A DNA stretch of 64,000 nt from Spinactinospora alkalitolerans (GTDB taxonomy: Bacteria > Actinomycetota > Actinomycetes > Streptosporangiales > Streptosporangiaceae). A program made the translations under genes and the position numbers. The notes below the pieces were generated by a model, which saw only the letters and a program-made list of their open reading frames with translations, was not told the DNA's origin and did not search any database. Positions 27,470 to 55,260 of this stretch are shown here, one piece after another; the first letter of the stretch is position 1, and every line of letters starts with the position of its first letter. The stretch lies in NCBI RefSeq assembly GCF_013408795.1, contig NZ_JACCCC010000001.1, positions 4,960,001 to 5,024,000 of the forward strand, written 5' to 3'.

Positions 27470-27559
27470 CGCCCGAGCGGCACCGGGCCGCGCGGCGGTC
27501 GAGGTGCGGTCCTGGGCTCGCCCGGGTCGCGCTGCTAGGCTTGGGCACCAGTCGCCGAC

Positions 27560-27756
27560 CCCGTACGGGAGAGTGCCCGCGCAAGCCAGCGCGGGCCGCC
27601 GAAGGAGCAATTCCTCCCCAGAGAACCTCTCAGGCGCGCCGGACCGTACGGGCGAGACCACTCTGGAAAGCAGGGGACCGCGTCCCCTCGCCGAAGGTGC
27701 AAGCCGCGCCCGCGCGCACGGTGAAGCTCTCAGGCACCGATGACAGAGGGGGAGGA
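27560..27756 (+). ncRNA. Tandem glycine riboswitch
   Basis: Two successive glycine aptamers. The first spans about 27563-27650 (GGGAGAGT, CGCCGAAGGAGCAA, CCTCTCAGGC). The second spans about 27651-27754 (CCACTCTGGAAAGC, CGCCGAAGGTGCAA, GCTCTCAGGCACCGATGACA). The CCGAAGG and CTCTCAGG boxes are the conserved glycine-binding core. The second P1 helix runs into GGGGGAGG, the ribosome binding site region. Glycine probably switches on translation of gcvT and the genes behind it. Confidence 0.95.
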
Positions 27757-44223: not shown

Positions 44224-44706
44224 TTGAGCGAGCCCACCGTCCGCCTCCAGCCCGGCGACACCGCTCCCGACTTCACCCTCGACGACGCCGACGGCAACCC
44301 CGTGACGCTCAGCGAGGTGCTCAAGTCCGACAGGCGCGTCGTGCTGTACTTCTACCCCGCCGCGATGACCCCGGGCTGCACCACGGAGGCCTGCGACTTC
44401 CGCGACAACCTGCGGGCCTTCGACACCGCGGGCCTGACCGTGCTGGGCATCTCCCCCGACGGCACCGCCAAGCTCGCCCGATTCCGCGACAAGGAGGGCC
44501 TGACCTTCCCGCTGCTCGGCGACCCGGACAAGAAGGTCCTCGCCTCCTACGGCGCCTTCGGCGAGAAGAAGAACTACGGCAGGACCGTCCAGGGCGTCAT
44601 CCGCTCCACCTTCGTCATCGCCGCCGACGGCACCGTGGAGAAGGCCCTCTACAACGTGAAGGCCACCGGCCACGTCGACCGGATCAAGCGCGAACTGGGA
44701 CTGTAG
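44224..44706 (+). CDS. bcp: Thioredoxin-dependent peroxiredoxin (BCP type)
   Basis: A 160-residue PrxQ/BCP peroxidase that reduces H2O2 and organic peroxides. The peroxidatic cysteine is in MTPGCTTEACDFRD; the second cysteine five residues on is the likely resolving one. The opening LQPGDTAPDFTLDDADG is typical. It starts at TTG with AAAGGAG upstream. It is divergent from the phosphatidyltransferase. Confidence 0.96.
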   Translation: MSEPTVRLQPGDTAPDFTLDDADGNPVTLSEVLKSDRRVVLYFYPAAMTPGCTTEACDFRDNLRAFDTAGLTVLGISPDGTAKLARFRDKEGLTFPLLGDPDKKVLASYGAFGEKKNYGRTVQGVIRSTFVIAADGTVEKALYNVKATGHVDRIKRELGL

Positions 44707-44876: not shown

Positions 44877-44951
44877 GGGGCCGTAGTCCAACGGGCAGGA
44901 GACGACTGTTTTAGGGGCAGTACAGTGCGGGTTCGAATCCCGCCGGCCCTA
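44877..44951 (+). tRNA. tRNA with UAG anticodon, short variable loop
   Basis: A 75-nucleotide cloverleaf. The acceptor stem GGGGCCG pairs with CGGCCCT through a G1-U72 wobble. T8, A14 and the D-loop GG are present. The anticodon stem ACTGT/GCAGT encloses TTTAGGG, giving anticodon TAG at 44912-44914. The variable loop is five bases and the T arm is GCGGG-TTCGAAT-CCCGC. No CCA is encoded. By anticodon it reads CUA (Leu), but it lacks the long variable arm of tRNA-Leu. A terminator follows 4 bases later. Confidence 0.8.
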
Positions 44952-44954
44952 CAC

Positions 44955-44994
44955 GAGCCGAAGGCGCGGGACGGCGATCCCGCGCCTTCGGCTC
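44955..44994 (+). terminator. Terminator after the tRNA
   Basis: A perfect 17-base-pair stem (44955-44971 with 44978-44994) and six-base loop begin 3 bases after the tRNA, with TTCC following. It could also end the convergent kinase transcript. Confidence 0.8.
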
Positions 44995-45024: not shown

Positions 45025-46320
45025 CTAACGGAACAGCAGCGCCCACAGCACCACCGCGAGCAGCGCGAGGACGCCCACGGCCACCGCGGCCACGACCGCC
45101 GCAGGGCTCTTACTGCGGTGCCGGCCCGAACTCGTCAGACCGAGCGTGTCCGTCGACTCCCGGATGGAGGTCAGCAGGGAGCTGACCGACTCGGGGCGGT
45201 GCCGGTGCAGCGCCTCCTGCAGCGACGACATCGACTCCGAAACCGACTCCTGCAACTCCGAGACCGACTCCTGCAGCGAACTGCGCAGCACGTGCGCACC
45301 GGCCCGGAAGTGCTCCCTGGCCCCGTCGCGGTCCGCGGACACCTCCTCCTCAACGGCCTCCTGCGCACCCGTGACCTCGGCGGCCGACTTCGCAGCCGTC
45401 TCGGGGCTGGTCTCCGGCGCCCACGGGGCCAGCGCGGCGATGCGCAGCATCTTCGTCGCGTTGTCCGCCGTCAGACGGGCATCGGAGTCCACGTGCAACA
45501 GGCCCGCCAGCACCGGCGCCAGCGGGCCGGCATGCTCTGCGAGCGGCGGATCCTCCAGGTCGTCCCCGCGCAGGATCGCGATGTAGCCCTTGCGGTTGTA
45601 GGGCGGGTGTCCCTCGACCGCCGCGTACAGCGTCGCCCCCAGCGACCACAGGTCCGACGCCGGCCCCACCGGCCCGGCCTTCGCCCGCTCCGGCGGGATG
45701 TAGGACGGCGAGCCGATGATCCGCCCGGAACTGGTCAGCGCGGACTCGCCGGTCCACGCCGCCAGACCGAAGTCGGTCAGCACGACCCGGCCGTCCTCGC
45801 TGATCATCACGTTGTCGGGCTTGACGTCGCGATGGATGATGCCTTCGTCGTGGGCCGCCTTCAGCGCGCTGATCAACTGCAGGCCGATCTCGGAGACGCG
45901 CTGGTAGGGCAGCGGCCCGGCCAGCTCGATGATCTCGGCGAGCGTGCGCGCGACGACGAGTTCCATGACGATCCACGGCCGGCCGTCCTCGTTCACGACG
46001 TCGAGAACGGTGACCACGCCGGGATGGGTGAGCCGCGCCGCGACCCGCGCCTCGCGGGTGGTACGGCGCAGCAGTGAGGTCCGCTCGGACTCGCTCAGAT
46101 CGGCCGGCAGCCGCAGCTCCTTGACCGCCACCTCGCGGTCGAGGACCAGGTCGGTGGCCCGCCACACGGTACCGACGCCACCGCGCGCGATCTGAGCCTG
46201 CAACGCGTAGCGGCCGGCCAGCACCCGCTCGTCGGGGGCGGCCTCAAGAGTCGCCGGGCGCGCTGAATCGAGCGACGACTGCGCAGGCCGCTCTGCTTCG
46301 GGCTTTTCGATGGAGGACAC
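45025..46320 (-). CDS. Membrane-anchored Ser/Thr protein kinase
   Basis: A 431-residue Hanks-type kinase. The glycine loop is IARGGVGTVW, the ATP lysine is in EVAVKELRLP, the catalytic loop HRDVKPDNVM, and the DFG segment LTDFGLAAW with GSPSYIPPE after it. A C-terminal helix (AAVVAAVAVGVLALLAVVLW) ends the protein, with no extracellular sensor. Between them (about 330-400) lies a Ser/Gln/Glu-rich stretch with repeated SLQES(V)SE units, perhaps a coiled region. The start is GTG. The substrate is unknown. Confidence 0.92.
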   Translation of the reverse strand: MSSIEKPEAERPAQSSLDSARPATLEAAPDERVLAGRYALQAQIARGGVGTVWRATDLVLDREVAVKELRLPADLSESERTSLLRRTTREARVAARLTHPGVVTVLDVVNEDGRPWIVMELVVARTLAEIIELAGPLPYQRVSEIGLQLISALKAAHDEGIIHRDVKPDNVMISEDGRVVLTDFGLAAWTGESALTSSGRIIGSPSYIPPERAKAGPVGPASDLWSLGATLYAAVEGHPPYNRKGYIAILRGDDLEDPPLAEHAGPLAPVLAGLLHVDSDARLTADNATKMLRIAALAPWAPETSPETAAKSAAEVTGAQEAVEEEVSADRDGAREHFRAGAHVLRSSLQESVSELQESVSESMSSLQEALHRHRPESVSSLLTSIRESTDTLGLTSSGRHRSKSPAAVVAAVAVGVLALLAVVLWALLFR

Positions 46321-49633: not shown

Positions 49634-49642
49634 GCAAGAAAA

Positions 49643-49760
49643 TGCGGCGGCGTCCTACTCTCCCACCCCACACCATGGAGGCAGTACCATCGGCGCTGGG
49701 AGGCTTAACGACCGGGTTCGGAATGGGACCGGGTGTGACCCTCCCGCCATCACCACCGCA
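49643..49760 (-). rRNA. rrf: 5S ribosomal RNA
   Basis: The minus strand reads GGTGGTGATGGCGGGAGGGT near the 5' end and ends near GAGAGTAGGACGCCGCCGCA. CATTCCGAACCCGG and GGTACTGCCTCCATGG are typical 5S loop sequences. Ends are estimated to within a few bases. Confidence 0.95.
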
Positions 49761-49925
49761 AACCCCACACCCCAACAACCACAAACCATGGCCACCGGGG
49801 AAACCTAAGGGCCGCGCGGAAAAAAGCGCGAAACCATATGAAGAAATCAAACCAGTGTGTGCGATCCGTGCACCCCCTCCCGGGGGGGCGGATTCGTGTG
49901 CGCGAGCATCCAGTCATCTGCGGTG

Positions 49926-54853
<4,928 letters not shown>

Positions 54854-55260
54854 AAGGCCAAACACCCCCCACCCCGACCAGGGCAGGAGGAAAACCTCGA
54901 AGAGAACAACCCCGACCAACCAACCCAACAAAAAGGGTCGGCCAATCAAAGGAACCCCACACCATCCAACGGACGATGCACGGGGCCAAAACAAACATGG
55001 CTATAAAGAAAAACAAACATCGCGCTGTTGAGTTCTCAAAAAACAACCGCCCACCACACACAAGCCGACCAAACCAGTCGCTCTTCAGCAGCAGCGGCGC
55101 TTCCGCTTTGTTGTGACTCCACTTTATCAGAGCCCCACCGTTCCGCCAAATTGGCGTTTCCGGCGATTCCGGCTCCGAAATGGACTTTCCTACACCCTAC
55201 TCTCTCGAATTACCGTTTTAACCGGTAATTCCAGCGAGCCATCCGAAAAACGGTCAAAGA
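54854..55260 (-). promoter_or_regulatory. rRNA operon leader and promoters
   Basis: On the minus strand, TTGGCG (55144-55149), a 17-base spacer and TAAAGT (55121-55126) form a good promoter. TTGACC (55252-55257), 18 bases and TGGAAT (55228-55233) form a second, weaker one. The leader has TTTTTTGAGAACTCAACAGC near 55025-55045, typical of actinobacterial rrn processing regions. A dyad at 55209-55229 lies between the promoters. Confidence 0.65.
55209..55229. promoter_or_regulatory. ATTACCG dyad in the rrn promoter region
   Basis: ATTACCG and CGGTAAT form a perfect inverted repeat around a 7-base A+T-rich spacer. It lies just upstream of the inner rrn promoter and overlaps the possible -10 of the outer one. 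Confidence 0.5.

Follow-up and report, generated by a model that had tools for sequence, protein, structure and literature searches.

Can a tRNA with a leucine anticodon and a variable loop of five bases serve as a leucine tRNA in a bacterium? The gene that raises this question lies at positions 44877-44951 (forward strand) of the window, the whole 64-kb stretch of DNA that was analyzed. Its preliminary description started from the premise that a long variable arm is universal in bacterial tRNALeu, and offered another amino acid identity, a role in a non-ribosomal reaction or gene decay as ways out. From its sequence and those of its relatives, we conclude that the gene most likely encodes a functional class I tRNALeu of a type widespread in actinomycetes and phages. 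It is highly probable, in our judgment, that this tRNA is charged by the single leucyl-tRNA synthetase (LeuRS) of the cell, decodes CUA and belongs to a trio of class I tRNAs that serve in place of the class II forms in this genome.

Structure and surroundings of the gene

The preliminary description had read a type I tRNA with the leucine anticodon UAG and a five-base variable loop, and had proposed covariance scoring as a check. This reading was borne out by ARAGORN, which called a tRNA-Leu(tag) at 44877-44952, by the Rfam tRNA model RF00005, which scored 51.5 bits at 44877-44951 against a cut-off of 29, and by a segment parser. The parser resolved an acceptor stem GGGGCCG/CGGCCCT followed by U8 and A9, a D stem GTCC/AGAC, an anticodon stem ACTGT/GCAGT and a T arm GCGGG-TTCGAAT-CCCGC. 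The D loop at 44890-44899 (AACGGGCAGG) has A14 and A15, G18 and G19, and A20a, matching the leucine identity of Escherichia coli. The anticodon UAG at 44912-44914 (also called by ARAGORN), which reads CUA and may by wobble read other CUN codons, is flanked by U33 and G37. The variable loop ACAGU at 44922-44926 ends in U48, and with 5 nt it falls short of the long arm of at least 10 bases that marks class II. The discriminator base A73 is the last base of the gene (44951), CCA not being encoded. All these parts lie on the forward strand, and the U8, A14, GG of the D loop, TTCGAAT T loop and U33 on which the cloverleaf had been based are in place. A strict type I UAG pattern matched once in the 64-kb window and in none of 100 shuffles. 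Energy-only folding of the unmodified RNA gave no cloverleaf and an unremarkable result (z -1.76; 10 of 200 shuffles as good).

Three features had been taken as oddities: the G1-U72 pair, a weak D stem and the missing CCA. All three are present, but they are not peculiar to this gene. Twenty-eight of 110 distinct relatives share G1-U72, and C13.A22 occurs in all 19 relatives retrieved by plain DNA similarity, so the weak D stem is a feature of the tRNA family; E. coli tRNALeu likewise has a mismatch at 13-22. Since CCA is encoded at the 3' end in 13 of the 53 ARAGORN tRNA genes of this genome, its absence is the usual state here.

The tRNA gene starts 171 nt past the end of a peroxiredoxin gene on the same strand (44224-44706; AhpC-TSA, 131.4 bits), which the preliminary description had called bcp. 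Downstream, a hairpin of 17 bp with a 6-base loop (44955-44994, forward strand; -39 kcal/mol, z -6.1) is the probable end of the transcript. The strong terminator described earlier is thus upheld as regards the hairpin but not the T tract, as a terminator scan that requires one reported none; a promoter scan gave no match either. A protein kinase gene follows on the opposite strand (45025-46320). ARAGORN found no second tRNA in the 64-kb window, so the gene does not lie among other tRNA genes as in an array, and a plasmid search with the tRNA returned no match. Elsewhere in the window are a glycine riboswitch aptamer (27556-27656, forward strand, 63.4 bits) and, about 5 kb downstream of the tRNA, a complete 16S-23S-5S rRNA operon on the reverse strand (49642-54854) with no tRNA genes inside.

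Class I tRNAs in the leucine set of the genome

The genome, a single contig of 6.68 Mb, has 54 matches to RF00005, among which tRNALeu(UAG) ranks 52nd by score. ARAGORN recognized 53 tRNA genes, with tRNALeu(UAG) among them. The match left over, a 57-nt, 31-bit fragment at 5897274-5897330 (reverse strand) that ARAGORN rejected, resembles the 3' part of tRNA-Phe; an intact tRNA-Phe lies about 10 kb away at 5907436-5907509, and the fragment probably marks an end of an element that has inserted at tRNA-Phe.

The leucine tRNAs comprise GAG and CAG genes of class II, with a long arm, and CAA (at 4064508), UAA (704274-704347) and UAG genes of class I, with a short loop; three of the five leucine isoacceptors are thus class I. 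Class II patterns matched twice in the genome, at GAG and CAG, and neither these patterns nor ARAGORN applied to the RF00005 matches found a class II UAG, UAA or CAA gene. A normal type II tRNALeu(UAG), the possible presence of which elsewhere had been raised at the outset, was accordingly not found. Beyond the three class I genes, no other tRNA with an anticodon matching UUA, UUG or CUA was found in the genome. Similarity to the other tRNAs of the genome was uninformative, the top seven being tied at 51 identical positions with one leucine tRNA among them. As a separate observation, the class I tRNALeu(UAA) has C33 in place of U33 (CCCCCTAAAAGGG), as does the class I UAG tRNA of another family genome (G051); U33 is near-universal in tRNAs.

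The codons matching the class I trio are rare in this genome (per thousand: TTA 0.12, CTA 0.25 and TTG 2.37, versus CTC 31.58 and CTG 63.46). As the trio reads rare codons, it is here that replacement of a tRNA would be tolerated most easily.

One leuS gene scored above the family cut-off in the genome (1690586-1693036; 831 aa from the first ATG). Its product aligns with the Thermus thermophilus LeuRS in two stretches, and a segment of about 58 residues (579-636 in T. thermophilus) is absent just before the MSKS motif, at what we take to be the site of the leucine-specific domain.

Conservation in the family and the class

In a sample of 100 genomes of the family, a DNA search gave matches in 71, some of them short or to other tRNAs, and the strict type I UAG pattern matched in 71, covering 53 of 68 genera, with no match for a reversed-pattern control; the two sets of 71 genomes are not identical. 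Variant type I UAG genes were found in five of the 29 genomes missed by the pattern (G015, G041, G043, G051 and G064), a relaxed type I pattern finding one among the 29, so that class I UAG tRNAs occur in at least 76 of the 100 genomes. No UAG tRNA of either class was found in the remaining 24. Together with the three short leucine tRNAs of our genome, these numbers overturn, for these actinomycetes, the premise that bacterial tRNALeu is always long-armed. All 19 relatives from the DNA search are type I Leu(tag), and 17 of the 19 family loci have a bcp-like gene within 1.5 kb of the tRNA; a search for orthologues beside bcp had been proposed at the outset. Class II leucine patterns matched in 98 of the 100 genomes; among the matches listed, the anticodons were CAG and GAG, except for CAA in G020, G044 and G062, with no UAG or UAA.

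At the level of the class, we scanned 394 genomes of 48 families. A general type I leucine pattern (UAA, CAA, UAG and CAG) matched in 216 genomes, a class II UAA/CAA pattern in 124 and a class II UAG pattern in 166. In the family of our genome, type I leucine tRNAs were matched in 38 of 41 genomes, class II UAA/CAA in one and class II UAG in none. A second family (f17) has class II UAG in 34 of 35 genomes and type I matches in five (four CAG, one UAA and no UAG); the four genomes with class I tRNA-like CAG matches beside class II UAG (G204, G286, G326 and G401) possibly carry a class I tRNALeu(CAG). A third family (f18), consisting of one genus, presumably Streptomyces, has class II UAA/CAA in all 39 genomes, a bldA-like UAA included, type I in four and class II UAG in one; the other 35 gave no match to a relaxed type I UAG pattern. 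Since six Streptomyces genomes are listed with UAG as the cognate anticodon of CUA (in portions of PMC4932002), our patterns miss some forms and the class-wide counts are lower bounds. Among the type I matches listed, UAA occurs in many families and CAA in others, and all three type I anticodons are found in families f31 (G137 and G154) and f46 (G333 and G442).

A scan of genome_contigs for type I UAG genes gave at least 120 loci, each cut at 8 kb. ARAGORN called a type I Leu(tag) in all 120 listed; the tRNA is the single one in 89 and stands among four or more tRNAs in 25. Among these listed loci, the lone genes come mainly from actinomycetes (Nocardiopsis, Streptomonospora, Thermobifida, Amycolatopsis, Saccharopolyspora, Nocardioides, Micromonospora, Actinomadura and others) and Acidimicrobiia, and the array loci from Nostoc and other cyanobacteria, Planctomycetes, Acidobacteria and others. 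Forty-eight of the 120 encode a bcp-like protein; 47 of the 89 lone loci do so, and none of the 25 array loci. In 30 of these 48 the tRNA follows on the same strand within 0-400 nt, in five it is on the opposite strand, and in the rest it is further off or upstream. The close order of bcp and tRNALeu(UAG) was seen in Nocardiopsis, Pseudonocardia, Nocardioides, Catellatospora, Asanoa and others among the listed loci, genera which we take to represent several actinomycete orders.

Class I leucine tRNAs in phages and mobile arrays

A similarity search retrieved leucine tRNAs 77-83% identical to ours in 14 phage records. Of ten examined, nine have a short UAG tRNA and one, Microbacterium phage WaterT, a short CAA tRNA. 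Gordonia phage Sixama (genes 144, 148 and 150) has short UAG, UAA and CAA leucine tRNAs, all of 74-76 nt, its UAG tRNA being 81.8% identical to ours over 66 nt; unlike our lone gene, they lie in a phage tRNA array. Scanning viral contigs for type I UAG gave at least 120 matches; every one of the 120 listed is a type I Leu(tag), and 87 stand among four or more tRNAs. In these viral stretches, the share of class I was 23 of 34 for UAA, 28 of 34 for CAA, 10 of 17 for GAG and 2 of 7 for CAG; in the listed chromosomal arrays it was 14 of 17, 9 of 12, 6 of 6 and 3 of 4, respectively. Both sets were chosen by the presence of a type I UAG gene, and within this selected sample class I versions of all five leucine anticodons occur in phages and mobile arrays. 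Clusters of tRNA genes with short leucine tRNAs bearing CAA, GAG, CAG or AAG were also seen within the family, in G001 (locus L376, 634-2159), G003 (L407), G084 (L408), G099 (L409) and G078 (L412).

How the chromosomal genes arose can be put forward tentatively. A possible course is that class I tRNALeu genes of the phage or array type entered actinomycete chromosomes and displaced the class II UAG, UAA and CAA genes, one isoacceptor at a time in different lineages. Such a replacement may have been favored, as a tRNA lacking the long arm would evade enzymes that attack it. The opposite direction, in which class I tRNALeu was invented by the host and captured by phages and arrays, is also compatible with a functional tRNALeu and would fit the bcp-linked order common to several actinomycete orders and the lack of bcp at array loci. 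We think it slightly less probable than the first course, both being less likely than not, as all five class I leucine anticodons are found in phages and arrays, including those of non-actinomycetes such as Nostoc, whereas the GAG and CAG genes resident in our family belong to class II.

Leucine identity and the meaning of the codons

To judge the identity of the tRNA, we compared 110 distinct type I UAG sequences, our own included, from 139 of 140 that could be parsed. The stems covary and are paired in nearly every sequence. Acceptor pairs 2-71, 3-70, 4-69 and 5-68 are formed in all 110 (shuffled means 56 to 60), as is the anticodon-stem pair 29-41 (shuffled mean 41.7). Because pattern and parser required C13, A14, A15, A22, U33 and a loop of five bases, the constancy of these is uninformative; A73, U48 and A20a were left free. 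Among the distinct sequences, A73 is present in 110, U48 in 107 and the D-loop motif GGNA in 104; the exceptions are three sequences that differ at U48 and six that lack GGNA, as well as G15 in the tRNAs of G041, G043 and G064, which had been found by other means than the pattern. For E. coli, excerpts of PMC9976931 give A73, A15-U48, G18G19 and A20a as leucine identity elements, and report that the sequence and folding of the long arm are irrelevant and that armless versions stay active. Our tRNALeu(UAG), with A73, A15-U48, G18 G19 and A20a, has these sequence elements. LeuRS would thus charge it through the acceptor end, the discriminator base and the elbow, much like the armless E. coli variants. 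The charged tRNA would then decode the rare codon CUA, and the class I UAG, UAA and CAA tRNAs would do the work of the class II forms, while the GAG and CAG isoacceptors for common codons stay class II. The structure, the conservation, the gene order, the codon alignments and the failure to find a class II counterpart are observations; expression and charging, the LeuRS contacts and an origin in which class II genes were replaced are what we infer.

A different amino acid at CUA, by reassignment of a sense codon, is an alternative that the short variable loop, unlike the long arm of class II tRNALeu, might suggest. It has a precedent in yeast mitochondria, where a tRNA with a UAG anticodon reassigned the CUN codons to threonine (sections of PMC7609411). 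We aligned 65 orthologous gene pairs from stretches of our genome and a relative (G021), with rRNA masked, a GC3 filter applied and rare leucine codons written as X before alignment. TTG aligned with leucine at 31 of 50 positions (22 of 30 in conserved surroundings), CTT at 24 of 40 (18 of 26) and CTG at 1255 of 1512 (975 of 1097); for CTA and TTA the numbers are small, at 3 of 4 and 1 of 3. At loci compared across many genomes, leucine was the majority residue for 5 of 7 TTA, 112 of 137 TTG, 72 of 83 CTT and 1847 of 2241 CTG codons. CTA, again in small numbers, had a leucine majority at just 13 of 23, five being mixed and the others having arginine (two), isoleucine (two) or phenylalanine (one). 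An earlier version of the codon test, in which CTA was kept as CTA in 25 of 40 cases, was dropped, its result being attributed to contamination by rRNA and shadow ORFs.

UUG, which the sister class I tRNA reads, clearly means leucine, and CUA is consistent with leucine on its small numbers, no other single residue exceeding two of 23. Serine identity needs a long arm and G73, and alanine identity G3-U70; tRNALeu(UAG) has no G3-U70, no G73 and no long arm. With the leucine elements largely conserved as well, the suggestion of another amino acid identity finds little footing, and we regard it as very improbable.

A specialized tRNA for a non-ribosomal reaction is similarly improbable. Its shape is unusual, and actinomycetes do employ aminoacyl-tRNA in this way (PMC12945691), but this is the sole UAG tRNA found in the genome, so that CUA could not be translated without it unless some other tRNA reads the codon. 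The gene is moreover conserved, the same form is present in phages and arrays, and its neighbors, a peroxiredoxin and a protein kinase, are not enzymes that use aminoacyl-tRNA. The remaining proposal, a decaying gene, could draw on G1-U72, C13.A22, the missing CCA and the low rank by score, but is scarcely credible when stem pairing and conservation are retained, the stems covary far above shuffles, the gene is found in 53 of 68 genera and the supposed defects are shared with relatives (C13.A22 in the 19 found by similarity, as it was fixed by the pattern in the others) or with other tRNA genes of the genome.

Comparison with known systems and implications

A probably functional class I tRNALeu in a bacterial chromosome can be set beside several known systems. 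The class II tRNALeu of the E. coli type has in common with it a leucine anticodon, A73, A14, A15-U48, G18G19 and A20a, and differs in having the long arm in place of the five-base loop. Animal mitochondrial tRNALeu is also recognized by LeuRS without a long arm (in parts of PMC9976931), whereas our tRNA has the full standard core, strongly covarying stems and a bacterial host; the two presumably arose independently. In the Mycobacterium mucogenicum clade, a tRNA cluster thought to be horizontally acquired includes a short-loop tRNALeu(TAG) (excerpts of PMC6582537). This tRNA shares the short variable loop and UAG anticodon, but is an extra copy beside a normal class II gene, whereas ours is a lone chromosomal gene and the sole UAG tRNA found.

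For tRNAscan-SE 2.0, a human Leu-CAA without the arm is described as an isotype conflict (sections of PMC8450103). Bacterial class I tRNALeu goes unmentioned in the sections seen of PMC7609411, PMC4033280, PMC6297222, PMC5966550, PMC5733544, PMC10272220 and PMC4255298, and a search of the open-licence PMC literature, in the portions retrieved, turned up no account of a bacterium with class I tRNALeu among its resident isoacceptors. Within these sources, what is new here is a resident class I tRNALeu in the position of class II in bacteria; a short mycobacterial array tRNA had already been mentioned. Novel cloverleaves have reportedly also been described by Mukai et al. in 2017.

Class I tRNALeu genes are the sole UAG, UAA and CAA leucine tRNAs found in this bacterium, which bears on how LeuRS recognizes its substrates and matters for the isotype calls made by tRNA programs. 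They are also relevant to regulation of the bldA type in organisms other than Streptomyces, and to the exchange of tRNA genes by phages and their hosts. If the replacement reading is true, core parts of the decoding apparatus would have been swapped for parts from mobile elements.
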